NCBI RefSeq assembly: GCF_018986915.1 | Contig: NZ_CP076723.1 | Location: forward strand, 1 to 64,000 | Length of the DNA: 64,000 nucleotides | Direction: 5' to 3' | DNA from: Geomonas oryzisoli | GTDB lineage: Bacteria; Desulfobacterota; Desulfuromonadia; Geobacterales; Geobacteraceae | Part shown: positions 13,361 through 43,849 of the stretch, piece after piece | How the letters are laid out: every line of letters begins with the position of its first letter | How positions within the stretch are numbered: position 1 is the first letter of the stretch | Notes under the pieces: model-generated | What the model was told of the DNA's origin: nothing | The model's database searches: none | What the model saw: only the letters and a program-made list of their open reading frames with translations | Program-made: the position numbers and the translations under genes

Positions 13361-14413
13361 ATGAGAGTATCCATGCCCACCGGCTCCATGCATGGCTGGG
13401 GCATCGCCGGCACCTACCTGCAGCGCGAGATCGCCAAACTCCCCCCGGTGCCGGGGGTGACGCTGCACTGCATGTCGCAGAACCTCGCGCCGCTCAACCC
13501 GGAGGCCTGGGACAGCATCAACATCGGCTACTGCTTCTTCGAGAACAGCATCGAGGTGCTCAACTTCACCCGCGCCGCGGGGCGCCAGTGGGATTTCATC
13601 GTGGCGGGCTCCAAGTGGTGCGAGTACCTGCTCCGCATCGGCGGGGTGAAAAACTGCACCACCATCCTCCAGGGGGTCGACCCTGAACGGTTCTACCCGC
13701 TGCCAATGCCGCCCGACGACCGCTTCGTGGTCTTCTCGGGGGGCAAGTTCGAACTGAGGAAAGGCCAGGACATCGTCATCGCCGCCATGAAGGTGATGAT
13801 GCAGCGCCACCGCGATGTCTACCTCTCCTGCAGCTGGGCCAACCAGTGGCCCTTCTCCCTGCTCACCATGGAGAATTCCCCCTTCATCACCTACCGCCAC
13901 GACGAGGCGGACTTCCTGAGCGTCCCGGGGCGTTGCGCACTCGAAAACGGGCTCGACCCGGCGCGCACCATCGTGCACCCGCTGGTGAACAACGCGACCA
14001 TCAGGGAGGTCTTCGCCGGGACCCACCTCGGGCTGTTCCCGAACCGCTGCGAGGGGGGGAACAACATGGTGATGTGCGAGTACATGGCCTGCGGCAGGAC
14101 CGTCATCGCTTCGGACAGCAGCGGCCACGCCGACGTGATCAACCCCGCCATCGCCTACCCGCTCCAAAGTTACCGCCCCATGGTGGTTGCCAACGGGGGC
14201 GTGCAGACCGGGGTGTGGGAGGAGCCGGTACTGGAAGAGGTTATCGAGACGCTGGAGCAGGTCTACCGCAACCGTCACGAGCTCCCCGGGAAAGGGGCGC
14301 TGGCCGCGGAGGAGATGCGCCGGCTCACCTGGGACGGCGCGGCGCGCCAGTTCCACTACCTGGCCACCAAGCTCGCCAACCGGGCCGAGCTGGCCCGGAT
14401 GCAGGGTGCTTAG
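13361..14413 (+). CDS. Glycosyltransferase family 4 protein
   Basis: 350 aa. It has a GT-B fold with a GT4-type C-terminal half: VVFSGGKFELRKGQDIVIAAM and the nucleotide-sugar-binding GLFPNRCEGGNNMVMCEYMACGRTVIAS. The N-terminal domain is short. Cytoplasmic; donor and acceptor are unknown. It is the first gene after a sigma-54 promoter and is followed, five bases on, by two giant TPR-glycosyltransferases and then flagellin, which suggests flagellin or surface glycan modification. Confidence 0.88.
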   Translation: MRVSMPTGSMHGWGIAGTYLQREIAKLPPVPGVTLHCMSQNLAPLNPEAWDSINIGYCFFENSIEVLNFTRAAGRQWDFIVAGSKWCEYLLRIGGVKNCTTILQGVDPERFYPLPMPPDDRFVVFSGGKFELRKGQDIVIAAMKVMMQRHRDVYLSCSWANQWPFSLLTMENSPFITYRHDEADFLSVPGRCALENGLDPARTIVHPLVNNATIREVFAGTHLGLFPNRCEGGNNMVMCEYMACGRTVIASDSSGHADVINPAIAYPLQSYRPMVVANGGVQTGVWEEPVLEEVIETLEQVYRNRHELPGKGALAAEEMRRLTWDGAARQFHYLATKLANRAELARMQGA

Positions 14414-14417
14414 CGCG

Positions 14418-17400
14418 ATGGCGGCGGATACCGGCACGGCGCACGACTTCGCCCGCGCCCTCGAGCTGCAGCGCGCCGGGCGTCTCCTGGAGGCGGAGCC
14501 GATCTACCGCAGGCTGGCCCAGGCCGGCGGCGGGCTCGCCGCGGACGTGCTCATCAACCTCGGCGCGCTCCTGGACGAGACCGGGCGCCACGAGGAGGCG
14601 CTTGAGGAGTACCGTAAGGCGCTCTCCCTGAGGCACGGGGATGCCATGGCGCTCAACAACATGGGGGCCTCGCTGTTCAAGCTGGGGCGCTTCGCCGAAG
14701 CCGCCGAGCTCTTCCGACGGGCCCTCGAGCAGGTGCCGGACGCCCCGGAACCGGCCATCGCCCTGGGGGGAGCCCTGCAGCGGGCCGGCGACGTCCAGGC
14801 GGCCATCGCCTGTTTCCGCGACCTCGTGCGGCGCCGCCCCGACTGCGCCGACGCGCACTGGAACCTGGCCCTGGCCCTGATCATGTCCGGCGAGTTCCGG
14901 GAGGGGTGGGCCGAGTACCAGTGGCGCTGGAAACGGGAGGCCTTCACCTCGCCTCGGCGCGGCTTCCACGCCCCCGCCTGGGACGGCGCGCCGCTTGACG
15001 GCCGGCGCATCCTGGTGCACGGCGAGCAGGGCTTCGGGGACACCATCCAGTTCGCCCGCTACCTCCCCATGGTGGCCCAGCAGGGGGGCGTCGTGATCGC
15101 GGAGTGCCAGTCGGCCGCGCTGGTGCCGCTCATGCGCGGCATCCCCGGGGTGGCCGAGGTCTGCGTCATGGGAGAACCGCTCCCCCCCTTCGACGTCGAG
15201 ATCCCCCTGATGTCGCTGCCGCACCTGTTCGATACCACCCTGGAAACCGTTCCCTGCCGGGTCCCCTACCTCTCCCCGCCGCCGGGGCGCCTCGCGCTCT
15301 GGCACGCCAAGCTCGCCGCGGACCCCGGCTTCAAGGTCGGGCTCGTGTGGGCCGGCAAGGCGGTCCCCGATCCGTTCCGCTCCTGCTCGCTCGCCGCCCT
15401 GGCGCCGCTCTTCGGCATCCCGGGGGCGAGCCTCTATTCGCTGCAGGTGGGCGAGGCGGCGGCCGGGCCGGGGGAGGGGGCCGGGCTGATCGACTTTACC
15501 CCGGCCATCCGCGATTTCGGCGACACGGCGGCCCTCATCGCCCACCTCGACCTGGTGATCTCCATCGACACCTCGGTGGCGCATCTCGCCGGGGCGCTGG
15601 GCAAGCCGGTCTGGCTCATGCTCCCCATGGCGGGCGATTACCGCTGGCTGTGCGGGCGCGACGATTCACCCTGGTACCCGACCATGCGCCTGTTCCGGCA
15701 GCAACGCCAGGGAGAGTGGGGCGAGGTGGTGGAGCGGCTGCGCGCCGCCCTTGCCGATGCCGTGGCGGGCTTCCTGGAGAGGCAGCTCACCGCGCACCCC
15801 TTCGACGGGGGGAGCCACTATCTCATGGGCGCCTTCCTGGCTGCCGCGGGAAAGCCGCGCGAGGCCACCGCCCGCTTCACCAAGGCCGCACAGCTCCTGC
15901 CCCGCCAGTGGCAGCCGCACTACGCCCTGGCGCAGGCGCTGCAGCAGCAGGGACGCTTCGCCGAGGCGGGGGCGAGCCTGGAAGATGCCCTCGCCCTGGA
16001 ACAGGGGGTGCCCCAGCTGCACGAGGGGCTGGGGATCGTGAGGCAGGTGCAGGGGGACCTGGCAGGGGCGCAGCGGAGCTACCGCGAGGCCCTGCGGCTC
16101 GACCCGGCCCTGGTCAAGGCACGCTACAACCTGGCCACCACGCTCAAGGAGATGGGGCGCTTCGAGGAGGCGCTGGACGAGTTCCGCGAAGTGGTGCGCC
16201 GCTCCCCCGGCTACGCCGATGCACATTGGAACCTGGCGGTCTTCCTGCTCATGACCGGCCGGCTGCGCGAGGGATGGAGCGAGTTTTCCTGGCGTTTCCA
16301 GAAGAGCATCCAGGCACCGCTGCGCCGGTGGCAGGAGTACCCCGCCTGGGACGGCGCCCCGCTGTCGGGCCGGACGATACTGCTCTACGGCGAACAGGGG
16401 GCGGGCGACACGCTCCAGTTCGTGCGTTACGCGCCGCTCGTGGCAGCGCAGGGGGGCAGGGTTCTGATCGAGGTGCAGTCGCCGGGGCTCGTGCCGCTGG
16501 TGCAAACGGTGGCCGGTGTCGAGGGGGTCTTCGCCTGCGGCGACGCCGTGCCGCCGTTCGAGCTGCAGGCTTCGCTCATGGACCTCCCCGCCATCTTCGG
16601 GACCGACCTCGCCGACATCCCCGCGCAGGTCCCCTACCTGCACGCCGACCCCGCGCGCGTGGCCGCCTGCGCCCCCCGCATCCCCGAGGACGGGACGTTG
16701 AAGGTGGGACTTGCCTGGCAGGGAAACCCCGGCCACCCAAACGACCTGAACCGCTCGCTCCCCCCGGAAAAGCTGGCGGCGCTCGCCGGGCTCCCCGGGG
16801 TGAGATTCTACTCCCTGCAGGTGGGCGCCCGGGGCGACCTCTCCGCCATCATGCCCGTCACCGACCTGGCCCCGGCCATCCGTGACTACGCGGATACCGC
16901 GGCGCTTGCCGGCCGGCTCGACCTGGTGCTTTCGGCCGATACCTCGGTGGCGCACCTGTGCGGGGCGCTGGGGCTTCCGGTCTGGCTCCTGGTCCCCTTC
17001 GTCCCCGACTGGCGCTGGCTGACCGGCCGCGACGACTCCCCCTGGTACCCGACCATGCGCCTGTTCCGCCAGAACGCGCCGGGTGACTGGGACTCCGTGC
17101 TGCAGCGGGTGGCGCGCGCCTTGGGCGAGCTCCTCGCGGCAAGAAGGGGAGACTTACGCGCCGCCGCGGACCCGGTGCGGCAGGCCGAGCGTTACAACGA
17201 CGAGGGGTGCACCCTGGACGGCGCCGGCAGGCAGGCGGAAGCCATCGAGCGCTACCGCAAGGCGGTGCAACTCTGCCCCGACTTCGCGGCGCCGCACTAC
17301 AACATGGGCAACAGTCTTTACACCCTCGGGCGGCATGCCGAGGCGATCGACTGTTACCGACACGCCCTGGCGGCCGAGCCGACCCTGGCCCAGGCGTGGC

Positions 17401-18743
17401 ACAACCTCGCGCTGGCGCTCAAGGAGCAGGGGGAGTCCGCGGAGGCGCTGCACGCCTTGAAACGCGCGGTGGCGGTCGCTCCGGACTACCTGGAGGCGCG
17501 GCACAGCCTGGGCGAGCTGTACCACGCCATGGGGGATCTCGACCTGGCCGAGGCGACCTTCCGCGCCATCCTCGCCGACGACCCCGGCTACCTCCCCTCC
17601 CTGAACGCGCTGGGGATCGCCCTGCAGGTGCAGGGGCGCCTCGAGGAGGCGGTGCAGTGCTACCGCCGCGCGCTGGCCCGGAAACCTGACTACCTGCACG
17701 CGCTCAACAACTTGGGCTCGGCGAGCCGCGCCCTGAATGACGTCGGCACCGCCATCGACTGTTACCAAAAGGTGCTCGCCATCGATCCCGGTTACGCCGA
17801 CGCCCGCTGGAACCTCGCGCTGGTGCAGCTGCAGCTCGGGCAGTACCGCGAGGGGTGGCGGGGGTACGAACAGCGCTTCGACAAGGTCGACCCCATCCCG
17901 CGCCTGGAGCTGTCCAGGCCCCTTTGGGACGGCTCCCTCCTGAACGGCAGGACCATACTGCTCCACGCGGAGCAGGGTTTCGGCGACACCTTCCAGTTCG
18001 TGCGCTACGCGCCGCTACTGGCGGCGCAAGGGGGACGCGTGCTGGTGCAGTGCCAGGCCAAACCGATCGCGCCGGTGCTCGCCACCGTGCCCGGCGTCGC
18101 CCGGGTGCTGGTGCGCGGCGAGCCGCTGCCGGAGTTTGACTGCCACGCGCCCCTCATGAGTCTGCCGCACCTGTGCGGCACCCTCCTCGAGACCATCCCG
18201 GCGCAGATCCCCTACCTCGCCGCCGACCCCATCCTGGTGGAGCGCTGGCGCCCCGCGCTCCCGCCGGAGGGCTTCCGGGTCGGGCTGGTCTGGGCCGGCA
18301 GGAAGAGCTACAAGGACGACCTGAAGCGGTCGCTCACCCTCTCGCTCTTCGCGCCGCTGGCGCAGGTTCACGGGGTCCGCTTCTGCGCGCTCCAGGTGGG
18401 GGACGGCGCCGAGCAGGCCGCGACCCCTCCGCCGGGGATGGAACTGACCGACCTCGGGGCCGGGATCACGAGCTTCGCCGATACCGCCGCCATCCTCACC
18501 CAGCTCGACCTGGTCATCTCCGCGGACACGGCCGTGGCGCACCTGGCCGGGGGGCTCGGGGTGCCGGTCTGGGTGCTCCTCCCCATGGCCTGCGACTGGC
18601 GCTGGCTCATGGAGCGCGAGGATTCCCCCTGGTACCCGAGCGCCCGTCTGTTCCGTCAGCAGTGCCGCGGCGACTGGGGGGAGGTGCTGGAACGGGTGGC
18701 CCGGCAGCTGGCCCTGCTGGTAGCCCGAAAAGGAGAACGATAG
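14418..18743 (+). CDS. Giant protein with three tandem TPR + GT9-like glycosyltransferase modules
   Basis: 1441 aa. It contains three repeats of one architecture: several TPRs, then a heptosyltransferase-like (GT9) domain. Each catalytic block starts near residues 201, 656 and 1182 with E-Q-G-x-G-D-T-x-Q-F, has a D-T-(S/A)-V-A-H-L-x-G-x-L-G-x-P-V-W motif, and ends D-W-R-W-L-x-x-R-x-D-S-P-W-Y-P. Module boundaries are roughly 1-450, 450-905 and 905-1441. The ATG at 14418 was chosen; a longer reading upstream is only the shadow of the GT4 gene. The TPRs probably bind a protein acceptor. The neighbouring flagellin makes flagellin the first candidate, but this is inference. Confidence 0.85.
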   Translation: MAADTGTAHDFARALELQRAGRLLEAEPIYRRLAQAGGGLAADVLINLGALLDETGRHEEALEEYRKALSLRHGDAMALNNMGASLFKLGRFAEAAELFRRALEQVPDAPEPAIALGGALQRAGDVQAAIACFRDLVRRRPDCADAHWNLALALIMSGEFREGWAEYQWRWKREAFTSPRRGFHAPAWDGAPLDGRRILVHGEQGFGDTIQFARYLPMVAQQGGVVIAECQSAALVPLMRGIPGVAEVCVMGEPLPPFDVEIPLMSLPHLFDTTLETVPCRVPYLSPPPGRLALWHAKLAADPGFKVGLVWAGKAVPDPFRSCSLAALAPLFGIPGASLYSLQVGEAAAGPGEGAGLIDFTPAIRDFGDTAALIAHLDLVISIDTSVAHLAGALGKPVWLMLPMAGDYRWLCGRDDSPWYPTMRLFRQQRQGEWGEVVERLRAALADAVAGFLERQLTAHPFDGGSHYLMGAFLAAAGKPREATARFTKAAQLLPRQWQPHYALAQALQQQGRFAEAGASLEDALALEQGVPQLHEGLGIVRQVQGDLAGAQRSYREALRLDPALVKARYNLATTLKEMGRFEEALDEFREVVRRSPGYADAHWNLAVFLLMTGRLREGWSEFSWRFQKSIQAPLRRWQEYPAWDGAPLSGRTILLYGEQGAGDTLQFVRYAPLVAAQGGRVLIEVQSPGLVPLVQTVAGVEGVFACGDAVPPFELQASLMDLPAIFGTDLADIPAQVPYLHADPARVAACAPRIPEDGTLKVGLAWQGNPGHPNDLNRSLPPEKLAALAGLPGVRFYSLQVGARGDLSAIMPVTDLAPAIRDYADTAALAGRLDLVLSADTSVAHLCGALGLPVWLLVPFVPDWRWLTGRDDSPWYPTMRLFRQNAPGDWDSVLQRVARALGELLAARRGDLRAAADPVRQAERYNDEGCTLDGAGRQAEAIERYRKAVQLCPDFAAPHYNMGNSLYTLGRHAEAIDCYRHALAAEPTLAQAWHNLALALKEQGESAEALHALKRAVAVAPDYLEARHSLGELYHAMGDLDLAEATFRAILADDPGYLPSLNALGIALQVQGRLEEAVQCYRRALARKPDYLHALNNLGSASRALNDVGTAIDCYQKVLAIDPGYADARWNLALVQLQLGQYREGWRGYEQRFDKVDPIPRLELSRPLWDGSLLNGRTILLHAEQGFGDTFQFVRYAPLLAAQGGRVLVQCQAKPIAPVLATVPGVARVLVRGEPLPEFDCHAPLMSLPHLCGTLLETIPAQIPYLAADPILVERWRPALPPEGFRVGLVWAGRKSYKDDLKRSLTLSLFAPLAQVHGVRFCALQVGDGAEQAATPPPGMELTDLGAGITSFADTAAILTQLDLVISADTAVAHLAGGLGVPVWVLLPMACDWRWLMEREDSPWYPSARLFRQQCRGDWGEVLERVARQLALLVARKGER

Positions 18744-18746
18744 CCG

Positions 18747-21719
18747 ATGCATCGCTTTGACGAACTGAACCGGGCGCTGGCGGAAAACCGTGTCGACGAG
18801 GCCCGGGAACTCTGCCGCGGGCTGTTGCTGGACGAGCCGGACAACGTGGACCTGCTCACCCTCTCCGGCGCCCTGGCGCGCCTGCGCGGCGCCACCGAGG
18901 AGGCCCTGGAGAGCTTCTCCCGCGCGGCGCAGCTCGATCCCGCCCAGGCCGAGCTGAATAACAACCTCGGGGTGGTCCTTGAGGACCTGGGGCGCTACGA
19001 GGAGGCGGCCGGGCGCTACCGCCGGGCCCTAGAGCTGAAACCCGATTACCCGGAGGCGCTGGGGAACCTCGGTAACGCGCTCTTGAAGCTGGAGCGCTAC
19101 GACGAGGCGGTTGCCCGCTTCTGCGACGCCATCGCCCTCGATCCCGGCTACACCAGCGCCTACTATCACCTGGGGCACGCGCTGCGGGCGCAGGGGGAGT
19201 GGGAAGGGGCGGCGCGCTGCTATCACAAGGTGGTCGAGCTGCAGCCGGACCACCTGAAGGGGTGGGTGAACCTCGGCGGCTCGCTGCTCGCCCTGAACCG
19301 GTTCGACGATGCCCTCTCCGTCCTGCGCGTGGCCCTCGACCTCGACCCCGAGAGCGTCGACGCCCACTGGAACCTGGCCCTCACCCTCCTCGTAGCAGGC
19401 GATTACCGGGAGGGGTGGCGCGAGTACCAGTGGCGTCTCAAGGATCCCGCGGGGAACTTCGCCGCCGAATTCCTGGGGCGGCCGATGTGGGACGGCGCTC
19501 CCCTCGCCGGGCGGACCCTGCTGGTGCGCGCCGAGCAGGGGTTCGGCGACGCCATCCAGTTCTTCCGCTACGCCCAGCTCCTGGCGCGCCGCGGGGAGCG
19601 GGTGGTGCTCGAGTGCCGCCGTGAACTGTTGGCGCTGTTCGCGGCCCAGGGGGAGGAGATCGCCCTCTTTGCCGCCGGTGACCCCCCTCCCGAATTCGAC
19701 ACCTTCGTCTACCTGATGAGCCTGCCGCATCTGCTCGGGACCACGCTGCAGGACATCCCCCCGCAGAGCCCGCCGCTCAGGACCGACCCCGTCCGCGGCG
19801 CCAGGTGGCGCGACCTCGTCCCTCCCGGAGGGGAGCTCAAGGTCGGGGTGGTCTGGGCCGGCAGCGCGGGGTACAAGCGGGACCGCTACCGCTCGCTTCC
19901 CGCGGGCGCCCTGGCCCCGCTCTCATCCCTGCCGGGGGTGACCCTGTACAACCTGCAACTGGGGGCCCGCCCCGACGACCTGGCCGCGCTGCGCGGCGGG
20001 GGCAAGCTCGTCGACCTCACCGGGGAGATCGGGGACTTCGCCGATACCGCGGCCTTCCTCGACCGGCTCGACCTGGTGGTGTCGGTGGACACGGCCGTGG
20101 CGCACCTGGCCGCGGCGATGGGTAAGCCGGTGCACCTGTTGCTCCCCTTCTCCTGCGACTGGCGCTGGCTCTACGGCCGCTCCGATTCCCCCTGGTATGA
20201 AAGCGTCACCCTGCACCGCCAGGAGGCCCCCGGACAGTGGCAGCCGGTGGCCGAGGCGGTGGCCCGCGGCATCGTCTCGACCACCGCGGCCGCCGGAGAG
20301 GACCCGAACCTGCTGTTCCGCGAGGCGAACCGCCTCAGGGGCGCCGGGGACCTGCGCGGCGCCATCGAGCGGTACCGCGCCCTCCTGGCCCGACTTCCCG
20401 ACTGTGCCGAGATCTACAACAACCTGGGGCTCGCCCTTCAGGACCAGGGGCTGTCGGCCGAGGCGGAGGCGAGCTACCGGCGCGCCCTGGAGCTGAAGCC
20501 GCACCTCGCCGACGCCTACAACAACCTGGGGACGCTGCTGGTCGGTCGCGCCGAGCACGACGCGGCCGAGCCGCTGTTCCGGCGGGCGGTCGAGCTGAAC
20601 CCCGACTACCTTCCCGCCTACGTCAACCTGGGCGCCTGCCTGCAGGTGCTGGAGGAGCCGGCGCAGGCGGTCGAGCTGTACCGCCGCGCCATCGCCCTCG
20701 ATCCGGGCTACTTCGAGGCGCGCATCAACCTCGGCACCGCCTACCAGGACCTGATGCAGCCGCGCCGGGCCATCGACACCTACGAGGAACTGCTGCGTCT
20801 CGCGCCGGAGCACCCCGAGGCGCACTGGAACCTGGCCCTGAGCCTCCTTTCGGTTGGGGAGTTCGAGCGCGGCTGGCGCGAGTACGAGTGGCGCCTGGCG
20901 GGATGCGAGCCCGAGCTGGCCCTCCCGGTCTGGCGCGGCGAGGAGCTTTCCGGACGCACCATCCTCCTTCAGTGCGAGCAGGGGCTGGGGGACACGCTGC
21001 AGTTCATCCGCTACGCGCCCCTGGTGGCGCAGCGGGGAGCGAAGGTGGTGCTGCGCTGCCAGATGGCGGGCCTTAAGCCCCTTTTGTCCCGCGTCCCCGG
21101 CGTCGCGGCGGTGTGCGCCCCCGGCGATGAGCTTCCCCCCTGCGACTGCCAGGTCCAGCTCCTGTCCCTGCCGCACCTGTTCGGCACCACCCTGGAGCAG
21201 ATGCCCCCGTGGCACCCCTACCTCTTCCCCGAGGAGCGGCGTGCCACGCTCTGGAGCCTCATGCTCGACGAGGGGAGGACGCTCAAGGTGGGGCTGGTGT
21301 GGCGCGGAGGGCCGCTCCCCAGGAACCGCGCCTGCCCCTTCCAGGAATTCGCCCCTCTTGCCGATATGTCGGGTGTGCTCTTTTATTCCCTGCAGCTGGG
21401 CGAGGCCCCGGACCCCGGCATACTCCCCGCCGTCGATCTCGCGGCGCAGATCAAGGACTTCGGCGACACCGCCGCCATCCTGGCCGGACTCGACCTGCTC
21501 ATCACCGTGGACACGGCCGCTGCCCACCTGGCCGGCGGCATGGGACTGCCGGTGTGGCTGTTGCTTCCCTACTCCTGCGACTGGCGCTGGTTCGCCGAGC
21601 GCGAGGACTCACCCTGGTACCCCACCATGCGGATCTTCCGCCAGCGCCACCCCGGCGACTGGCCCGGCGTGATGGGCCGCATCCGGGGCGCCCTGGCAGA
21701 GAGGTTGAGCTGCCAATAA
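18747..21719 (+). CDS. Protein with two tandem TPR + GT9-like glycosyltransferase modules
   Basis: 990 aa. It has the same architecture as the preceding gene with two modules: TPRs, GT9-like block near residues 260-508 (AEQGFGDAIQFFRYA), TPRs, and a second block near 743-990 (CEQGLGDTLQFIRYAPL; CDWRWFAERED). It starts four bases after the preceding stop with AGGAGAACG upstream, so it is translationally linked. Together the two genes hold five paralogous modules. It is the last gene before flagellin. No signal peptide or membrane helix; cytoplasmic. Confidence 0.85.
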   Translation: MHRFDELNRALAENRVDEARELCRGLLLDEPDNVDLLTLSGALARLRGATEEALESFSRAAQLDPAQAELNNNLGVVLEDLGRYEEAAGRYRRALELKPDYPEALGNLGNALLKLERYDEAVARFCDAIALDPGYTSAYYHLGHALRAQGEWEGAARCYHKVVELQPDHLKGWVNLGGSLLALNRFDDALSVLRVALDLDPESVDAHWNLALTLLVAGDYREGWREYQWRLKDPAGNFAAEFLGRPMWDGAPLAGRTLLVRAEQGFGDAIQFFRYAQLLARRGERVVLECRRELLALFAAQGEEIALFAAGDPPPEFDTFVYLMSLPHLLGTTLQDIPPQSPPLRTDPVRGARWRDLVPPGGELKVGVVWAGSAGYKRDRYRSLPAGALAPLSSLPGVTLYNLQLGARPDDLAALRGGGKLVDLTGEIGDFADTAAFLDRLDLVVSVDTAVAHLAAAMGKPVHLLLPFSCDWRWLYGRSDSPWYESVTLHRQEAPGQWQPVAEAVARGIVSTTAAAGEDPNLLFREANRLRGAGDLRGAIERYRALLARLPDCAEIYNNLGLALQDQGLSAEAEASYRRALELKPHLADAYNNLGTLLVGRAEHDAAEPLFRRAVELNPDYLPAYVNLGACLQVLEEPAQAVELYRRAIALDPGYFEARINLGTAYQDLMQPRRAIDTYEELLRLAPEHPEAHWNLALSLLSVGEFERGWREYEWRLAGCEPELALPVWRGEELSGRTILLQCEQGLGDTLQFIRYAPLVAQRGAKVVLRCQMAGLKPLLSRVPGVAAVCAPGDELPPCDCQVQLLSLPHLFGTTLEQMPPWHPYLFPEERRATLWSLMLDEGRTLKVGLVWRGGPLPRNRACPFQEFAPLADMSGVLFYSLQLGEAPDPGILPAVDLAAQIKDFGDTAAILAGLDLLITVDTAAAHLAGGMGLPVWLLLPYSCDWRWFAEREDSPWYPTMRIFRQRHPGDWPGVMGRIRGALAERLSCQ

Positions 21720-21937: not shown

Positions 21938-22756
21938 ATGGCAACTAGCGACATCTCTCTCACCGCAGGCATGAGGACCAACCTTCTCAACCTCCAACAG
22001 ACCAGCCAGCTCCTGAACAGGACCCAGCAGAGGCTCTCCTCCGGCAAGCAGGTCAACAGCGCTCTCGACAACCCGACCAACTACTTCGCAGCGCAGAACG
22101 CAAACCAGCGCGCCAGCGACCTCGCTGACCGTAAGGACGGCATGTCCGAGGCGGTTCAGACGGTTTCGGCTACCAACGCAGGTATCACCGCCATCACCGG
22201 CCTGATCAACGCAGCAAAAGGTATCGCGCAATCCGCCCTCTCCACCAGCGACACCTCGACCAGGTCCAAACTGGCGACCCAGTACGACACCATTCGTAGC
22301 CAGATCGACAACATCTCCTCTGACTCCGGTTACCGTGGTCTGAACCTGCTGAGCTCCACCAACACCCTGACCGTAAACTTCAACGAAGATGCGAGCTCCA
22401 GCCTCGACGTCGTCGGCTTCCTGGCCAACTCCACCGGTCTGAGCCTCACCGGCGCCAGCGGCGCATGGTCGACCAACTCGGACATCACCACCGACACGGC
22501 CAACATGGACACCGCGATCTCGACCCTGAGGTCCAACACCCAGACCCTGGCGGCGAACCTGAACATCATCACCACCCGTCAGAACTTCACGGACTCGATG
22601 ATCAACACCCTGCAGACCGGCGCTGACAACCTGACCCTGGCCGACATGAACCAGGAAGGTGCCAACATGCTGATGCTGCAGACTCGTCAGAGCTTGGGTA
22701 CCACCTCGCTCTCGATGTCCTCGCAGGCAGCCCAGGCAGTGCTCAGACTGTTCTAA
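21938..22756 (+). CDS. fliC: Flagellin (major filament protein)
   Basis: 272 aa. N-terminal D0/D1: ISLTAGMRTNLLNLQQTS, RLSSGKQVNSALDNPTNYF. C-terminal D1/D0: MLMLQTRQSLGTTSLSMSSQAAQAVLRLF in type. The centre is short and Ser/Thr-rich (about residues 138-190), so there are no large D2/D3 domains; these residues are candidate O-glycosylation sites. The start was set at 21938 because AAAAGGAGAAG precedes it and the family N-terminus fits. The coding sequence looks richer in favoured codons than its neighbours, as expected for an abundant protein. A strong hairpin follows the stop. Confidence 0.97.
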   Translation: MATSDISLTAGMRTNLLNLQQTSQLLNRTQQRLSSGKQVNSALDNPTNYFAAQNANQRASDLADRKDGMSEAVQTVSATNAGITAITGLINAAKGIAQSALSTSDTSTRSKLATQYDTIRSQIDNISSDSGYRGLNLLSSTNTLTVNFNEDASSSLDVVGFLANSTGLSLTGASGAWSTNSDITTDTANMDTAISTLRSNTQTLAANLNIITTRQNFTDSMINTLQTGADNLTLADMNQEGANMLMLQTRQSLGTTSLSMSSQAAQAVLRLF

Positions 22757-22764
22757 CCCTAGCT

Positions 22765-22792
22765 TTGCGGAGCGGGGTAACCCGCTCCGCAA
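22765..22792 (+). terminator. Hairpin after flagellin
   Basis: A perfect 12-bp stem (22765-22776 with 22781-22792) encloses loop GTAA. The downstream tail (TCCCTCTT) is only weakly T-rich, so partial read-through into the 22816 gene is possible. It may also protect the flagellin mRNA 3' end. Confidence 0.7.
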
Positions 22793-22815
22793 TCCCTCTT
22801 CGCCGGGGGTGACAC

Positions 22816-23559
22816 ATGTTGATCGATCGATTGCAAGCCGAGAGCGTTCCCCTCCCGTCTGCCGCATCCCAACCCAACTCCCCCTCCAGCCCTGCCCAGA
22901 TTCCCCCTTCAGAAAAACAAAGGCCCGAAGAGCCGCAGATCGTAGACCAGGTGCTCGTTTCGGTGCCGGGGGACAAGAAGCTGGCGGACATCCGTCTGCA
23001 AAACGAGCGGCAAAACAGCGCCGCAGCCGCCATCAGGGAGACCGACAAGGCGGCCCAGGAGTTGGGTCAAAAGATTGACAAGCTGAAGGAACCTCTCGAA
23101 ACGATAGTTAAAAATTTTCCTCCCTTCGCACCGCAAGACAAGGAAAGGGTCAAACTCCTCAGGAGCTACACGTCGCTTCGCAAGGAGATCGACCAGCTCA
23201 CCTTTCCTCCTCCTCCCTCCGTTGTCGAGGCCCCCAAAGAGGTGACGCTTCCCGAACCGCTCGGTATGAACGCGGACGACAGTCAAATTGCTGACCACGT
23301 GGACAAACTTGACGCGGCGGCGCAGTCGCTGCAGTCGATGCGGACCGCCATAGCCGCTGATACGGCGGCTTTCGTGCGCAGCGGGCGCTTCGCCGGCATG
23401 TTCTCCACGCCCAAGGGCGCGGAAACACAGGCTTTCGAGCCGATCGCCACCGAATCGCGCGCGGCGGAAAAAAGTGTCGAGATTGGCCAGCAATTTGCAG
23501 AATCGGTTACTCAGGGGGTGACGTTACAGCACCCTCAATTCCTGAAAGGGTTGAGTTAA
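22816..23559 (+). CDS. Uncharacterised helical protein of the flagellin locus
   Basis: 247 aa, not assigned to a known family. Residues 1-45 are Pro/Ser-rich; the rest is predicted helical and coiled-coil-like (LADIRLQNERQNSAAAAIRETDKAAQELGQKIDKL in type; DKLDAAAQSLQSMRTAIAADTAAF), with a Pro-rich break (LTFPPPPSVVEAPKE). There is no signal peptide or membrane helix. It lies between flagellin and flbT-flaF, five bases before flbT, so a role in flagellin export, assembly or modification is likely but unproven. A distant relation to FlaG-like accessory proteins is possible. Confidence 0.75.
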   Translation: MLIDRLQAESVPLPSAASQPNSPSSPAQIPPSEKQRPEEPQIVDQVLVSVPGDKKLADIRLQNERQNSAAAAIRETDKAAQELGQKIDKLKEPLETIVKNFPPFAPQDKERVKLLRSYTSLRKEIDQLTFPPPPSVVEAPKEVTLPEPLGMNADDSQIADHVDKLDAAAQSLQSMRTAIAADTAAFVRSGRFAGMFSTPKGAETQAFEPIATESRAAEKSVEIGQQFAESVTQGVTLQHPQFLKGLS

Positions 23560-23564
23560 CCGAT

Positions 23565-23954
23565 ATGTCCCTAAAAATTACCTTGAAGAGCAACGAGCGG
23601 CTAATCGTGGGCGGCGCTGTGGTCAGAAACGGCGGCAAGGGGACGGTTCTCTTCATCGAGAACACGGTCCCCATACTGCGCGAGAAGGACATCCTGGGCG
23701 AGAAGGACATCACCACGCCCTGCAAACGGGTCTACTTCACCATCCAGCTCATGTACATCGACGAGCCCAACGTCCCGAACTACGTCAAGGCGTACTCGGA
23801 ACTGGCGACCGAGATACTGAGGGCGGCCCCCAGCACCAGGACCTACATCGAGCAGTTGAACGAACGGATCGAGGCCGGGCAGTACTACCAGGCACTCAAA
23901 CTTGCGAAGAATCTCATCGAGTACGAAGAGGAGCTACTGAAAAATGCAAACTAA
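23565..23954 (+). CDS. flbT: FlbT-family post-transcriptional regulator of flagellin
   Basis: 129 aa. Core sequence: LKITLKSNERLIVGGAVVRN, LFIENTVPILREKDI, PCKRVYFTIQLMYI, which fits FlbT. In Caulobacter FlbT represses flagellin synthesis by acting on the fljK leader mRNA. It overlaps flaF by 11 bases. The pair FlbT-FlaF is characteristic of alphaproteobacteria and its presence here is notable. Flagellin with a long leader lies 0.8 kb upstream. Confidence 0.88.
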   Translation: MSLKITLKSNERLIVGGAVVRNGGKGTVLFIENTVPILREKDILGEKDITTPCKRVYFTIQLMYIDEPNVPNYVKAYSELATEILRAAPSTRTYIEQLNERIEAGQYYQALKLAKNLIEYEEELLKNAN

Positions 23955-24333
23955 CAACGCGATCAAGGAGTACGTCGGTATCCAGAAGGAGAGCATGTCG
24001 GGACGCGAGCTCGAAGCCTCCGTGCTGACCAAGGCGGGGCTGATGCTGAAAGCCGTCCAGGAGAACTGGGATGCCCCGGACCGCGAAGCCAAGATGCTGG
24101 AGGCGATAAAGTACAACCAGAAGGTCTGGAGCTTCTTCCAGGCCGAGCTTACCGAACCGGGCCACCCGATGCCCAAGAAGCTGAGGGAGGACCTGTTGAA
24201 CCTGAGCCTCTTCGTCGACAAGAGGTTCTTCGAGGTGATGGCTTTCCCGACGGCGGAAAAACTCTCCATCGTCATCGACATCAACTTCAACATCGCCGCG
24301 GGCCTGAGGACCAATCCCGAGGCCGCAGGTTAG
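23944..24333 (+). CDS. flaF: FlaF-family flagellin synthesis regulator
   Basis: 129 aa. The pattern RELEASVLTKAGLMLKAVQENWD, LEAIKYNQKVWSFFQAEL, LREDLLNLSLFVDKRF fits FlaF. In Caulobacter FlaF binds flagellin and is needed for its secretion and translation, opposing FlbT. It is translationally coupled to flbT by overlap. It is the last + strand gene before the convergent glycosylation island. Confidence 0.88.
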   Translation: MQTNNAIKEYVGIQKESMSGRELEASVLTKAGLMLKAVQENWDAPDREAKMLEAIKYNQKVWSFFQAELTEPGHPMPKKLREDLLNLSLFVDKRFFEVMAFPTAEKLSIVIDINFNIAAGLRTNPEAAG

Positions 24334-24554: not shown

Positions 24555-26327
24555 CTACCGGCGCGACGTCGCCCAAAGCTCGGCCAGCACCGTTTCCAGT
24601 TCCCGCGTGACCCCCACCGCATCCAGAAGCGGCGAGCGCCGCAGTCTCTCACGGGCACCCGCCCGGAACTCCCGCAGCGTCTCCCGGTCGCGCGCCACCT
24701 GGCGCGCCATGTCCACGAAGGCCGCTTCGCTCTGGGTAACCAGGTCGGCCAGGCCGCAGTTGGTGAGCAGGCTCGCGCCGGTGCGCGAACAGTGGCGCTC
24801 GCCGGAGAGCGAGATCACCGGGACCCCCATCCAGAGGGCCTCGCAGGTCGTGGTGGTGCCGTTGTAGGGGAAGGTGTCCAGCGCGATGTCGACGCGCCGG
24901 TACTGCTCCAGGTGCTCCCGGGTGCCGGGCTGGCCCGGGTCGAGCTCGATACGCCCGGCCGCCACCCCCTGCTCCCGGAACCGGTCCAGGATGCGCCGGC
25001 GCACCCCCTGGTCCGCCAGCGGCTTCGCCTTCAGGAGCAGGCGCGCGTCGGCGACCTCCCGCAGCAGGCGGCCCCAGAGCGCGATCATCTCCGGGGTGAC
25101 CTTGGAGAGGTTGTTGAACGAGCCGAAGGTGATGTAGCCGTTGGCGCCGCAGGGGGGCGGAACCAGGTCCGGGGCCTCGGCCGGGGGGAGGTAGCAGCAG
25201 AAGGAGCGGGGGAGCCGCAGCAGCCGCTCGCTGTGCAGGCGGTCTCCCGCCCCCGGCGGGTCGGCCAGGGCGTCGGTGATGCGGTAGTCCATGGCCTTCA
25301 GGCCGGTGGTGTCCGGGTAGCCGATCCAGGTGACCTGGATCGGGGCGGGACGGCGGCAGAAGACGGGGAGCCGGCTGCCGGAGGTGTGCCCCGCCAGGTC
25401 GAACAGGATGTCGATGCCGTCCCGGGCGATCAGGGCGGCGGCGTTGTGGTCGGTGAGGCCGTGGATGTCGCGCCACTGGTCGGCGACCCCCTGCAGGCGC
25501 TGCGTGGTCGCGTCGGGCGTGGCGACGTTCGCGTAGCAGAAGATCTCGAAGCGGTCGCGGTCGTGCTGCCTGAGCACCGGCTCGATGAAGCTCGCCACGG
25601 CGTGCCCCCGGAAGTCGGGGGAGAGGTAGCCGATCCTGATGCGGTCGCCGGGAGCGGGACGGACGTGGTCCGGTTCCCGGGGCGGGCGGAAGGGGCGGCT
25701 GCGCGCCGCGCTCAAGTGCTCGGCGTAAATATGGCGCCGGCTGAACTGCGGCGCGTAGTGCAGGGCGAAGAGGAGGTTCTGCCGGGCGTCCAGGTGGTCC
25801 GGGTCGAGACGCAGCGTCTCCCGGTAGGCCGCCACCGCCTCGAGGCTCCTCCCCTGCGCGTGCAGCACGTTGGCGAGGTTGTAGGTGAGGCGCACCGAGT
25901 CGGGGGCGAGCTCGATCCCTTCACGCAGCACCAGCTCGGCCTCGCTCAGGCGCAGCGCCTCCTTCAGGAGCAGGGCGAGGTTGATGCGGGCCTCGCTGAA
26001 AGAGGGGTCGACCCGCAGCGCGGCGGCGAAGGCCGCCGCTGCCCGTTCCAGCTCACCGAGCTGCCGCAGCGCGCCCCCCAGGGCGTTCAGGGCCTTCGTG
26101 TTCTCCGGCTCCAGCGCGAGCGTCCGGGCCAGCAGCTCGGCCGCCTCCCGCGGCAGGCCGTCTTCCCCTTTGAGCACCGCCAACAGGTAACAGGCGCCGG
26201 CGCAGCCGGGTTCCTGGCGCACCAGCTCTTCGAGCCGGGCGCGCGCCTCCTCCTGCATCCCCTTGCGCAGCAGGAGTTCCACGTACTTGAGCTGTGCCTG
26301 GCTTGGTGCCGATTGCTCCGAGGCCAT
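24555..26327 (-). CDS. TPR-containing O-GlcNAc-transferase-like glycosyltransferase (GT41/SPINDLY family)
   Basis: 590 aa. Residues ~10-210 are TPRs (NLANVLHAQGRSLEAVAAYRETLRLDPD). The GT41 catalytic region follows: IGYLSPDFRGHAV, IDILFDLAGHTSGSRLPVF, PIQVTWIGYP, TFGSFNNLSKVTPEMI and the UDP-binding LDTFPYNGTTTTCEALWMGVPV. Such enzymes glycosylate Ser/Thr of proteins in the cytoplasm. The start at 26327 was chosen because MASEQSAPSQAQLKY begins the TPR region and GGAGGTGACC precedes it. The stop of the upstream gene is two bases away. It is the last gene of the long operon. Confidence 0.92.
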   Translation of the reverse strand: MASEQSAPSQAQLKYVELLLRKGMQEEARARLEELVRQEPGCAGACYLLAVLKGEDGLPREAAELLARTLALEPENTKALNALGGALRQLGELERAAAAFAAALRVDPSFSEARINLALLLKEALRLSEAELVLREGIELAPDSVRLTYNLANVLHAQGRSLEAVAAYRETLRLDPDHLDARQNLLFALHYAPQFSRRHIYAEHLSAARSRPFRPPREPDHVRPAPGDRIRIGYLSPDFRGHAVASFIEPVLRQHDRDRFEIFCYANVATPDATTQRLQGVADQWRDIHGLTDHNAAALIARDGIDILFDLAGHTSGSRLPVFCRRPAPIQVTWIGYPDTTGLKAMDYRITDALADPPGAGDRLHSERLLRLPRSFCCYLPPAEAPDLVPPPCGANGYITFGSFNNLSKVTPEMIALWGRLLREVADARLLLKAKPLADQGVRRRILDRFREQGVAAGRIELDPGQPGTREHLEQYRRVDIALDTFPYNGTTTTCEALWMGVPVISLSGERHCSRTGASLLTNCGLADLVTQSEAAFVDMARQVARDRETLREFRAGARERLRRSPLLDAVGVTRELETVLAELWATSRR

Positions 26328-26329
26328 GG

Positions 26330-29300
26330 TCACCTCCGGTACAGGGTGAGCTGGCGCAGGTAGTCGAGCCGGGTGCCGAAGAGCCGGCAGGTGCCCGGCG
26401 CCCAGGTCTTCATCTGCGCCACGGCGAGCGAGACGTTGGAGAGCCCGTTGCCCAGGAAGCGGTCGCAGCGGGCGGCGAGCAGGGTGTCGATGAGTACCTC
26501 TTCCCCCAGCGCCCGGCGGCTCGCCTGCTTCTGGTAGTGCACCCCCTGCAGGTTGGCGGTGCGGGTCGAGACGGTGTAGACGAGCCGGCTCCCGAAGCGC
26601 TCGCGGTACTGCGCGAGGATCCTGTCGTCGTCGGTGCTGAGGAAGATGCGCGCCTGCGGCTGGTCGCGCAAAAGCCGCTCCAGCTCGGGAAGGTAGAGGG
26701 CGTTCAGCCGGGCGAGGCCGGGGTCCTCGCCGACCTTGTCGCCACCTCTCACGTGCAGCGCGAGCGCGGGCGCGCCGGCCAGGTGCTCGCGGTAAAAGGC
26801 GTCCACCCGTTCCAGGATGCGCGGCTGCACGGCGAGGTAGCGCCGGTACAGGTAGAGGTAGAGCTCGGCCGTGCTGAGCCCGTGCAGCGGATGACCGGCC
26901 GGGATCCAGGGGGCCAAGTCGTTGACCGCGTAGTGGAAATCGCTCACCACGACCTCTTCCTGGCGCTCGAGGCTCCAGAGCGCGGAACAGCGGGACCAGG
27001 GGCCGTCGAACTTGGCGAGGTTCTCGTGGCGCACGTTGTCGCGCTGCCACTTGGGCGGATAGAAGCTGCGCCGGCGCGAGATCAGGTCGTTCATGGTGAC
27101 CGTGGAGACCGGCTCGAAGAAACGGTTGAAGGCGTTCTCCAGCGGATCGTCGCTGAAGAGCGAGTTGGCCCCCCAGTGCACCACCGGGGTGCGGCCGGTG
27201 ATCTCGGCGAGCAGGAGCTGCCCCAGCACGTGGTTCACGTCGCTCCAGAAGCCGTAGCCCCAGGCCTTGATCAGCAAAAGGCGCTCCCCCTTCGCTTCCG
27301 GCGCCGGGAGCTGCGCCCCCTCCTGCGCCTTCACCAGCAGGATGCGGGTGGCGCGCGAGTCATCCCCCTGCTCCAGGGCGCGGGAGAAGGCCTCCACCGC
27401 CGCGGCCGGCTGTCCGACGGCGAGGGCGACTTCGCCCAGGGTGCGGCTCACGCGTGGGCTTCGATACCCGCGGTCCCCGAGGTAGCGGCAGATGAGGTCC
27501 GCCGGGGTCACGAGCCCTGCGCTGCAGAGGAGCTCGGCGCAGTCGGCCAGGGTGTCGCTCGCGATCGGTTCGGCGTTCTCCTCCCGTCCCTCCTCGCGTG
27601 CCAGGGCGCGTGCCTGGTCCGCCGCGGTCAGTGCGTCCAGCGCCTCCTGGATATCGCCCAGCGCCGACCGCTCCCCGCCGCGCAGGGCCTCCAGGAAGCG
27701 CTGCAGCGCTAAGTCAGGCTCTCCCTGCCGCAACAGCTCGCGCCCCTCGACCCTCGGATCCGCGGCGGGGGCGGGATGGCTGCGGCACCACTTTTCCCAG
27801 ACCTCGCTCAGCGCGGCCTCCAGGGTGCGGGTGAATCCGGCGCCGTCGGTGAGGGGGGAGGCGGCCATCCGGTCGCGCAGGGTCTGCCTGAGCTCTCCGA
27901 GCCGGGCGCGGTCCTGGGCGAGGGCCGCGGCGCCGGCAACAAAGGCCCCCGCTTCCTGCACCGCCAGGGCGTCCAGCCCCAGGGCGTGCAGCAGGGACGC
28001 CCCCACCCGCGAGCGGTGCGTCGTCCCCGAGAGGGTCAGCACCGGGACCCCCATCCAGAGCGCCTCGCAGGTCGTGGTGGTGCCGTTGTAGGGGAAGGTG
28101 TCCAGGGCGAGGTCGACCCGGCCGTAGAGGGCGAGGTGGTCGCGGTAGGAGGGGGTGTTGCCGGTCAGCTCGAGCCGTTCCGGGGCGATGCCCCGCTCGG
28201 CGAAGGCGTCCAGCAGGTGCTGCCTCGTTTCGGGGCAGGCAAAGGAGTACCCCTTGAGCAGCAGGCGCGAGCCGGGCACCGCGCGCAGCACGTCGGCCCA
28301 CAGGGCGACGGTCTCCGGCGTGATCTTGGCGGGGTTGTTGAAGGAGCCGAAGGTGACCCGTCCCGCGGCGAGGCAGGGAAGATCGGCAACCGCAGGTGCC
28401 TCCTCGGGGGGGGCGAAGCAGGAGAAGGTGCCGGGCAGCCTGATCAGCTCCTCGCTGTGGTAGCGCTCGGTGGCGCCGGGGGGATCGCAGACGGCGTCGC
28501 TGATGCGGTAGTCCATGGTGGTGAGCCCGGTGCTGAAGGGGTAGCCAATCCAGGTGATCTGCACCGGCGCCGGCTTGCGGGCGAAGAGCGGCAGCCGGTT
28601 TCCCGCCGAGTGGCCGGAGAGGTCGACCAGGATGTCGATGCCGTCCTCGGCGATGAGCCGGTCCACGGCGTCGTCCGGCAGCCCCGCGATGCTGACGAAA
28701 CGGTCGCACCGTGCGGCGAGGCGCGCGCTTTTCCCGTCGGGGACGGAGACGTTGGAGTAGCAGAAGACGCGGAAACGCTCCCGGTCGTGGTGGGCCAGCA
28801 CCGGCTCGATGAAGCGCGCCACGGCGTGCTCCCGGAAGTCGGCGGAGACGTACCCCACGTGCACCACCCGGTCCGGCTCCGGCGCGTTGTCGTGGCGCCG
28901 GGGGGGGAAGCGGTGTGCCGCGCCGAAGGCGGCATGCTCGGCGAAGACGGTCACCTCGGCGCTGCCGGCCTGGTAGAGCAGGGCGAACAGCAGCGAGCTG
29001 TGCACCTCGGCGTTGTCCGGCGCCAGCCGCAGCGCCGCCCGGTAGTGCTCCAGCGCCTCCCGGTGCCGCCCCTGCGACTTGAGCACGTTGGCCAGGTTGT
29101 GGTGCGCCTCGGGGTAGTTGGGGCGCAGCCTGAGCGCCTCGCGCAGGGAGCGGATCGCCGCGCCGCCGTTGCCGAAGCGCTCGAGCAGGATGCCGAGGTT
29201 GCTGTGCGGGTCGGGATAGCGGGGATCGAGGCGGATCGCCGCCAGGAAGCTGTCCCGCGCCTCCTCGCCGCGCCCCAGGGCGCTCAGGGCGAGCCCGAGG

Positions 29301-29641
29301 TTGTTGCGCAAGCCCGCGTTGTCGGGGGCGAGGCGGCAGGCCTCCTCCAGCGCCTGCGCGGCCTCTTCCATGCGCCCCAGCCGGGCCAGGGCGAAACCGT
29401 GGTTCCCGTGCGCTTCGCTCCACTGGGGTGCCAGCTGCGTCGCCCGCTCGAAGTGCGGCAGCGCCTCCCCCGGCCCGTAGAGCCGGTCCAGGGTGCACCC
29501 CAGGTTGAAGCTCGCCTGGGCGAAATACGGGTCGAGCTGCAGCACGCGCCGGTAGCGTTCGGCGGCGCCGGAAAGGTCGCCGGCGGCGAACAGGGCGTTG
29601 GCGGCCGCGAAGACCTCTTTCAGACTCTGTGACTCGGTCAT
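26330..29641 (-). CDS. Fusion of TPR-OGT (GT41) with a GT23-like fucosyltransferase domain
   Basis: 1103 aa. Residues ~1-255 are TPRs. Residues ~258-610 form a GT41 domain closely like the 24555 product (HVGYVSADFREHAVARFIEP; LDTFPYNGTTTTCEALWMGVPV). A helical linker follows. Residues ~780-1103 resemble NodZ/FUT8-type alpha-1,6-fucosyltransferases (GT23): KAWGYGFWSDVNHVLGQLL, LHVRGGDKVGEDPG, IFLSTDDDRILAQY and DRFLGNGLSNVSLAV. The start at 29641 overlaps the preceding stop (ATGA). The GT23 assignment is by motif only; the enzyme may transfer another deoxy-sugar. Confidence 0.85.
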   Translation of the reverse strand: MTESQSLKEVFAAANALFAAGDLSGAAERYRRVLQLDPYFAQASFNLGCTLDRLYGPGEALPHFERATQLAPQWSEAHGNHGFALARLGRMEEAAQALEEACRLAPDNAGLRNNLGLALSALGRGEEARDSFLAAIRLDPRYPDPHSNLGILLERFGNGGAAIRSLREALRLRPNYPEAHHNLANVLKSQGRHREALEHYRAALRLAPDNAEVHSSLLFALLYQAGSAEVTVFAEHAAFGAAHRFPPRRHDNAPEPDRVVHVGYVSADFREHAVARFIEPVLAHHDRERFRVFCYSNVSVPDGKSARLAARCDRFVSIAGLPDDAVDRLIAEDGIDILVDLSGHSAGNRLPLFARKPAPVQITWIGYPFSTGLTTMDYRISDAVCDPPGATERYHSEELIRLPGTFSCFAPPEEAPAVADLPCLAAGRVTFGSFNNPAKITPETVALWADVLRAVPGSRLLLKGYSFACPETRQHLLDAFAERGIAPERLELTGNTPSYRDHLALYGRVDLALDTFPYNGTTTTCEALWMGVPVLTLSGTTHRSRVGASLLHALGLDALAVQEAGAFVAGAAALAQDRARLGELRQTLRDRMAASPLTDGAGFTRTLEAALSEVWEKWCRSHPAPAADPRVEGRELLRQGEPDLALQRFLEALRGGERSALGDIQEALDALTAADQARALAREEGREENAEPIASDTLADCAELLCSAGLVTPADLICRYLGDRGYRSPRVSRTLGEVALAVGQPAAAVEAFSRALEQGDDSRATRILLVKAQEGAQLPAPEAKGERLLLIKAWGYGFWSDVNHVLGQLLLAEITGRTPVVHWGANSLFSDDPLENAFNRFFEPVSTVTMNDLISRRRSFYPPKWQRDNVRHENLAKFDGPWSRCSALWSLERQEEVVVSDFHYAVNDLAPWIPAGHPLHGLSTAELYLYLYRRYLAVQPRILERVDAFYREHLAGAPALALHVRGGDKVGEDPGLARLNALYLPELERLLRDQPQARIFLSTDDDRILAQYRERFGSRLVYTVSTRTANLQGVHYQKQASRRALGEEVLIDTLLAARCDRFLGNGLSNVSLAVAQMKTWAPGTCRLFGTRLDYLRQLTLYRR

Positions 29642-38241: not shown

Positions 38242-38991
38242 CTAGCCCTTGTGGACCAGGTACCCGGACGGGTTGCAGGTGAAAAGGAGTTTGTTCTCCA
38301 GGGGGTGGTCCACCTGGAACTCGGGGTGATGTTTCAGGAATTCAAGTACGGCGGTCTTCGGGTTGTTCCCCGGCCCCCACTCGCGGGTGCGGTGCTCCTG
38401 CTCCGGGATGTCCTCGACGATGGTGTCGCAGCAGACCAGGTACTGCCCCTTTCCCACGAAGGGGAAGTACGCGTTCAGCTCGTTCAGCACGTGCTCGTGG
38501 GTGTGGTAGGAGTCGAGGATCACCATTACCTCGCGGCACTCCCCCACGATGGAGCGGACCTTATCCAGGGTGGAGGCGTCGAGGGACGCCCCGTTGATCA
38601 GCTCCAGCCGCTGCGAGAGGCGGCCGTGGGAGGCGAGACGCTCCTTCAGGTCGGGCGGCATGTAGATGTCGACGCCGATGATCTTCTCCCCCCCGAGGAT
38701 CTCCATCAGCGTGGAGAAGAAGAGCATGGCGCCGCCCCAGGCGACGCCGATTTCCACGATGTACTTGGGGCGGGTCCGGTAGATGATCTCCTGCAGGGCG
38801 AACATGTCCTGGGGAAGGTTCAGGATGGGCTCCCCGAGCCAGGTGGTCTGGTGGATCCACCGGTGCTTGTCCGCCTCGACCAGCACCTCGAGGGCCTTTT
38901 GCCTGAGCCCCTGGTCCGCCGCCATCCCCGCCGCCGACTCGCGGCGCAACTCCTCGAACTCTTCTCTGGTGAACATCTTCTTTGCTGTCAC
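38242..38991 (-). CDS. CmcI-type SAM-dependent methyltransferase (cephalosporin hydroxylase family)
   Basis: 249 aa. The conserved block YIVEIGVAWGGAMLFFSTLME carries a SAM-binding-like motif, with GVDIYMPP, MVILDSYHTHEHVLNEL and YLVCCDTIVEDI as in CmcI/rhamnosyl O-methyltransferase relatives. It probably O-methylates a sugar. A GTG start at 38991 is preferred: GGAGG lies six bases upstream and it overlaps the preceding stop (GTGA); the ATG five codons on has no such spacing. Confidence 0.82.
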   Translation of the reverse strand: MTAKKMFTREEFEELRRESAAGMAADQGLRQKALEVLVEADKHRWIHQTTWLGEPILNLPQDMFALQEIIYRTRPKYIVEIGVAWGGAMLFFSTLMEILGGEKIIGVDIYMPPDLKERLASHGRLSQRLELINGASLDASTLDKVRSIVGECREVMVILDSYHTHEHVLNELNAYFPFVGKGQYLVCCDTIVEDIPEQEHRTREWGPGNNPKTAVLEFLKHHPEFQVDHPLENKLLFTCNPSGYLVHKG

Positions 38992-39929: not shown

Positions 39930-39968
39930 TTGATCACCTCGTTGGTCGTTCGTGGCGGCTGAGCCGCC

Positions 39969-40973: not shown

Positions 40974-40987
40974 GTGACGCTCCTTTG

Positions 40988-43833: not shown

Positions 43834-43849
43834 GTGTGCTCCTGGTAAA

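Follow-up and report, generated by a model that had tools for sequence, protein, structure and literature searches.

A conserved array of five TPR-glycosyltransferase modules beside a FlaF-type flagellin in Geomonas: a probable flagellin glycosyltransferase

Five TPR-GT9-like modules in two adjoining genes

The window, which here denotes the whole stretch of 64,000 nucleotides that was analysed, comes from the single-contig, 4.85-Mb genome of Geomonas oryzisoli (NZ_CP076723.1, positions 1 to 64,000). It contains two adjoining genes, designated A and B, which share a strand and are separated by a three-base gap. The features of the locus are as follows:

13361-14413, + strand: GT4-type glycosyltransferase, just upstream of gene A
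14418-18743, + strand: gene A, three TPR + GT9-like modules (1441 aa, ATG start); GT domains at about 14901-15764, 16269-17132 and 17850-18719 (+)
18747-21719, + strand: gene B, two TPR + GT9-like modules (990 aa, ATG start); GT domains at about 19410-20273 and 20868-21704 (+)
21938-22756, + strand: short flagellin, likely acceptor (272 aa)
22816-23559, + strand: orf247, a 247-aa protein between flagellin and flbT, with no Pfam or NCBIfam match
23565-23954, + strand: FlbT (PF07378, 146 bits)
23944-24333, + strand: FlaF (PF07309, 113 bits)
24555-26333, - strand: TPR + GT41 (OGT/SPINDLY-type) protein, by Pfam
26330-29641, - strand: TPR + GT41 protein with a NodZ-like (fucosyltransferase-type) C-terminal domain, by Pfam
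29638-33534, - strand: three GT2 stretches interleaved with TPRs, by Pfam
33531-38228, - strand: 1565-aa chain with three GT2 stretches and a GT9 domain, by Pfam; methyltransferase match below cut-off
38242-46619, - strand: sugar-building and sugar-modifying genes (CmcI-type methyltransferase, epimerases, two DegT aminotransferases, hexapeptide acyltransferase, radical SAM, C-methyltransferase)
42784-43902, - strand: radical SAM/SPASM protein within this sugar-gene block

The open reading frames of genes A and B bear out the description in the earlier note of two neighbouring proteins with three and two repeats of one module. Pfam searches with the whole proteins matched many TPR families in both, together with the GT9 family (PF01075), which scored above its gathering threshold of 22 bits in gene A (45.9) and in gene B (36.6). 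Each module comprises approximately 450-530 residues, in which a TPR block precedes a GT domain of some 290 residues, and the first GT domain shares 49-53% identity with the other four. When the GT domains were run singly, PF01075 was the sole Pfam family returned at E values up to 1 for all five, and its matches were confined to short C-terminal stretches. Three domains passed the family cut-off (25.1, 23.9 and 28.7 bits), and those of modules 2 and 5 fell below it (11.2 and 14.8 bits). Assignment of these domains to GT41 was rejected on the same searches, in which none of the five matched PF13844, a family strongly matched by the neighbouring proteins at 24555-29641.

The sequence motifs attributed to the modules in the earlier note were recovered in part. 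E-Q-G-x-G-D is present in all five modules and D-T-x-V-A-H-L is exact in four of them, with DTAAAHL in module 5, while D-W-R-W-L is altered to DYRW in module 1 and carries F in place of the final L in module 5. A DSPWY motif is also present throughout, and every module keeps the R of RS, the D, T and H of DTxxAH, and D.RW. At E <= 1e-10, a profile of the GT domain had no matches beyond these five places among those listed for the window's genome.

The sugar-building genes at 38242-46619 could possibly supply the donor sugar. No NeuB-type family was found among the Pfam matches listed for the 24 window proteins scanned. Relatives of the upstream GT4-type gene are fused with a TPR-GT9 module in a single open reading frame in three genomes (G028, G033 and G046).

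Predicted fold of the modules

Searching solved structures by sequence with the five GT domains returned two matches, the best with an E value of 0.2, and was uninformative. Structure prediction had been proposed as a check in the earlier note. A model of module 3, built with 108 related modules, reached a pLDDT of 94.6 and a pTM of 0.90, and its GT domain (model residues 268-533) aligned with the solved GT9 chain 3tov_B (Z 18.4, rmsd 2.9, 251 residues) and with heptosyltransferase II 1psw (Z 18.3, rmsd 3.1, 249 residues). In this model, a GT-B fold of the GT9 kind spans the whole GT domain, and the TPR part aligns structurally with many TPR proteins, OGT and MamA among them. The two modules of gene B were modelled from 11 sequences with a pLDDT of 89.6, the mutual orientation of the modules being uncertain (pTM 0.53).

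Conservation of the array in the genus

Five module matches were found in 15 of the 19 genus genomes searched, including that of the window, among the matches listed. The remaining four presented none (G008), one (G015), seven located elsewhere (G016) and none (G018, a genome of 85% completeness), again among the matches listed. The 3+2 order is shared by 16 genomes, picked for holding five modules: the window's own, 14 further genus carriers and G023, which belongs to another genus. The 20 stretches extracted for comparison also include G016, G026, G028, G033 and G037, all without this order. Conservation in 15 of the 19 genus genomes and in G023 led us to reject chance or artefact as an explanation for the array. 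Gene boundaries are more labile, since all five modules lie in one 2840-aa open reading frame in G007 and gene A is broken after module 2 in G006; hence it is the order of the modules that is constant, and not the boundaries between genes.

Alignment of the modules and construction of a tree, as suggested in the earlier note, revealed that each module position forms its own clade, with support of 0.946-1.0, in a tree of 152 modules that has 17 rows per position because G003 enters twice. Across the 16 genomes, modules share 68-78% identity within a position and 45-52% between positions, and the median dN/dS against the window was 0.21, 0.25, 0.18, 0.30 and 0.19 for positions 1 to 5. All five positions are under purifying selection, and the modules are not interchangeable repeats.

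The loss of nucleotide-sugar-binding residues from most modules, named in the earlier note as an outcome that would speak against its proposal, was not seen. In all 80 modules of the array genomes, the E, Q, first G and D of EQGxGD, the R of RS, the D, T and H of DTxxAH, the R and W of DWRW, the W and Y of SPWY, and the R and Q of FRQ are unchanged; the other tallied residues vary in some modules, chiefly at positions 4 and 5. In an alignment of 109 modules from several phyla (the query and 108 of the 172 modules listed), E280, G284, D285, G384, R399, D459, H470, W500, Y501 and W515 are invariant; among the 80 modules of the array genomes, a single one departs from D459. The tallied motif residues may bind the nucleotide sugar. 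Only 10 of 290 columns are fixed within positions (in at least 15 of 16 genomes) yet different between them, and none of these was mapped to the ligand or donor site.

Association with FlaF-type flagellins

The gene order motB-GT4-array-flagellin-orf247-flbT-flaF is kept in 14 other carriers of the genus and in G023, with motA preceding motB wherever the stretch extended far enough; the contig of G007 stops after the flagellin, and G023 has three flagellins. In every one of the 16 genomes that have the 3+2 order, the distance between the start of a short flagellin and that of the closest module is 0.6-1.2 kb. Residues 140-205 of this flagellin are 36% Ser/Thr, and 14 positions in the region are Ser/Thr throughout 15 aligned genomes.

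The flagellin-FlbT-FlaF group at 21938-24333 of this Geomonas is of the alphaproteobacterial kind. The orf247 product, probably a flagellar protein, is encoded between flagellin and flbT in most of the FlaF-type relatives examined and was not seen in G042. Two more short flagellin matches occur in the window's genome, away from the array, at positions 2640846 and 4592704. Searches of plasmids and phages with the flagellin or the modules provided context only.

Analysis of 58 genomes of the order identified FlaF in 36 and FliS in nine, and never both. Among the matches listed, 27 of the 36 FlaF genomes and none of the nine FliS genomes had at least two modules no more than 20 kb from a flagellin (Fisher 5e-5, a value that ignores kinship and so overstates independence). 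By genus, the corresponding counts were 11 of 15 for FlaF and none of five for FliS. For at least one module, the genome counts were 30 of 36 and two of nine; these figures, too, cover the matches listed. The two FliS genomes with one nearby module in these matches are G015, at 18 kb, and G044, at 2.7 kb; a further FliS genome, G016, has a four-module open reading frame on a 15.8-kb contig that does not allow linkage to a flagellin to be judged. Genomes with neither FlaF nor FliS had no module near a flagellin in 13 of 13 cases, and two of them (G020 and G038) had modules and no flagellin match, among the matches listed. Distances were taken between listed start coordinates, leaving out fragments, low-scoring PF00669 rows that begin at positions 1-6 and were regarded as FlgL-like, and unlisted module rows, such as three weak ones of G057.

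Both flagellin types occur within Geomonas and within one other genus, the congeners G008, G015 and G016 having canonical FliC and FliS and no FlaF. In six FlaF genomes (G039, G042, G047, G050, G051 and G056), none of the modules among the matches listed came within 20 kb of a flagellin, indicating that the array is not always needed by this flagellin type. FlaF was found in one of 14 control genomes, that of Caulobacter.

The module family beyond the genus

Serial modules had been called unusual in the earlier note, and this rarity was not upheld. Among the loci most similar to the query (best 80 of 545 relatives), a set biased towards it, 33 of the 101 open reading frames clear of locus ends contain at least two full modules (two to six). 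A single 5379-aa open reading frame of Telmatospirillum (L151, 2148-18284, + strand) contains ten TPR-GT9 modules, and two more genes with three modules lie on the same contig. In the sampled tree, the modules of several arrays group together, each array as a separate clade (Telmatospirillum, G016, Tychonema, a Verrucomicrobia locus and G026), and those of others are interspersed. Transferase families are also mixed in single open reading frames, as in L132 (two TPR-GT9 modules and GT41 domains, 2321 aa) and L058 (GT9-GT47-GT9). Serial modules are hence not unique; what is new is a specialised, conserved five-module array tied to one flagellin type.

Of 76 genomes sampled from the class to which Azospirillum melinis belongs, 27 contained the family. 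Five Azospirillum genomes gave 21-29 matches each, and members also occur in cyanobacteria, Nitrospira, Paraburkholderia and others. Two cyanobacteria carry members without any flagellin match, and none of the ten flagellin matches of the Telmatospirillum genome falls on the ten-module contig. Given this abundance away from flagellins, family membership alone cannot name the acceptor.

A parallel arrangement was identified in A. cavernae, A. melinis and A. brasilense Sp7, where a flagellin frame of 627-629 residues is followed by FlbT and a three-module open reading frame, which is faced by a second one with two modules. In Sp7 the array is on NZ_CP012915.1 and the flagellin frame has 629 aa. 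The Azospirillum and Geomonas loci are thus alike in flagellin, FlbT and 3 + 2 TPR-GT9-like modules, and differ in clade and motifs. A further alignment took in 46 of 110 modules found, plus three from the window. The 18 Azospirillum array modules form one separate clade with support of 1.0. These modules keep EQGxGD and are without the R-S and D-T-H motifs, this diverged subfamily (L155, L156, L157 and L160) having A[TS]xxGEL-like sequences for DTxxAHL and mostly AY for RS. Common ancestry of the two 3+2 arrays is accordingly unsupported: their equal number looks convergent, and the Azospirillum arrays provide an analogy more than a copy.

The polar flagellin of Sp7 is described as a 65-kDa protein running at 100 kDa through glycosylation (PMC12826043), and the text of PMC3958885 assigns to it a branched tetrasaccharide repeat. 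In a table of the latter review the glycoprotein appears as Laf1, and in PMC12826043 Laf1 is the lateral flagellin. Judging from size and family, the flagellin gene beside the Sp7 array is presumably that of the polar flagellin.

Interpretation of the array

The earlier note's view of the flagellin as likely acceptor is strengthened by the FlbT/FlaF context, the conserved linkage and the Azospirillum parallel, and we consider it very likely that this protein is the one modified. It is also likely that all five modules are catalytically active and non-redundant. With somewhat less assurance, we propose that genes A and B probably encode a cytoplasmic flagellin glycosyltransferase resembling FlmG, in which multiplication has given five specialised modules, a proposal in which we infer acceptor, catalysis, place, timing and division of labour. 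Every module would pair a TPR superhelix, presumed to hold flagellin, with a separate GT-B catalytic domain of the GT9 type. A flagellin monomer would be gripped by the TPRs and glycosylated on Ser/Thr residues, probably in its central region, ahead of FlaF-assisted export. Each module probably performs one transfer, with the modules differing either in the sugar that they add to a single glycan or in the site that they modify.

In our judgement it is possible, and only slightly favoured over separate sites, that a single glycan is built up sugar by sugar on a flagellin that stays bound, by the modules together with the GT4, GT41 and GT2 proteins next to them. The deep divergence of the positions and the retention of their order in 16 array genomes are consistent with such an arrangement, as are the fusions of transferase families in relatives (L132, L058, and GT4 with a module in G028, G033 and G046). 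The tetrasaccharide repeat on the Sp7 polar flagellin points in the same direction (PMC3958885). Set against this, position-specific fixed columns are few, with none mapped to the donor site; the variable gene boundaries mean that a single continuous chain is not required; and the orientation between modules is uncertain.

Slightly less probable is the reading in which each module puts the same or a similar sugar on a different Ser/Thr of the flagellin. The near-identical active-site motifs and the 14 conserved Ser/Thr positions would fit it, as would the four threonines of Caulobacter FljK that are reported as modified (PMC7591256). Against it, FlmG, with a single module, apparently serves several sites there, so that extra modules would be unnecessary.

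An acceptor other than flagellin, whether a surface glycan or another protein, with the array placed in the flagellar locus through linkage with glycan genes, appears improbable. The spread of the family away from flagellins, including the two cyanobacteria, and the large glycan-gene block downstream of the array speak for it; the short distance to the flagellin in all 16 genomes, the gene order kept in another genus and the separate array at an Azospirillum flagellin argue against it. Functionless expansion, with the extra modules redundant or pseudo-enzymes, is very improbable: growth of some arrays within one locus (Telmatospirillum, G016 and Tychonema) implies that copy number can drift, but the tallied motif residues preserved across all 80 modules, the dN/dS of 0.18-0.30 at every position and the five positional clades oppose it.

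Flagellin O-glycosylation that proceeds free of a lipid carrier is described as a succession of glycosyltransferase steps (PMC3958885). What fixes the order and site is poorly understood, and a chain of several intact, specialised, protein-binding transferase modules would, if confirmed, offer a physical basis for order. Rather speculatively, the order of modules along the TPR chain might set the order of sugars on the bound flagellin, and longer chains elsewhere, such as the ten-module protein of Telmatospirillum, might use the same device to build longer glycans on other proteins. Two genera in which FliC/FliS sets are exchanged with sets of short flagellin, FlaF and TPR-GT9 provide a natural experiment on flagellin modification.

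Comparison with known systems

The heptosyltransferases of family GT9 (1psw and 3tov) share the fold of their GT domain with the array modules, and presumably also the GD and D-T-x-x-x-H type motifs. These enzymes are not known to carry TPRs, and their acceptor is lipopolysaccharide. PF01075 covers only short stretches of the array modules, with two of the five under its cut-off. OGT and SPINDLY, which glycosylate proteins, are TPR + GT41 enzymes (8dtf, 7y4i and 3pe3) and resemble the modules in having a TPR superhelix followed by a GT-B transferase. They differ from the array in their GT family and in having one catalytic domain per chain, and the true GT41 proteins of this locus are the neighbours at 24555-29641.

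In the open-licence PubMed Central literature, no report was found of tandem or family-9 TPR transferases, of FlaF/FlbT in Geobacter or, by title, of Geobacter flagellin glycosylation. For flagellin, heptosyltransferase and TPR combined, a search of the same literature gave FlmG and HMW1C. Work on multi-domain flagellin transferases includes Listeria motility control, with GmaR named in one title. The Caulobacter vibrioides control genome contains some PF01075 protein, which does not prove a link to FlmG.

FlmG of Caulobacter crescentus, taken here from its published description, is the system to which the array is likened by architecture and gene context. The report on this enzyme (eLife 2020, PMC7591256) describes a TPR half that binds flagellins and a GT half that is insufficient alone, both halves being needed. 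FlmG is cytoplasmic and is proposed to work ahead of the export chaperone FlaF, and FlbT and FlaF act on the flagellins that it modifies (PMC7591256). It differs from the array in being a single module of 596 aa, with pseudaminic acid as its sugar (PMC7591256). Like the array modules, it combines an N-terminal TPR part with a C-terminal GT-B part of similar size (its last 288 aa), and it acts on flagellins that use FlaF and FlbT (PMC7591256). The analogy with FlmG drawn in the earlier note is therefore supported by the shared TPR + GT-B plan and by the FlaF/FlbT-type flagellin encoded next to the array.
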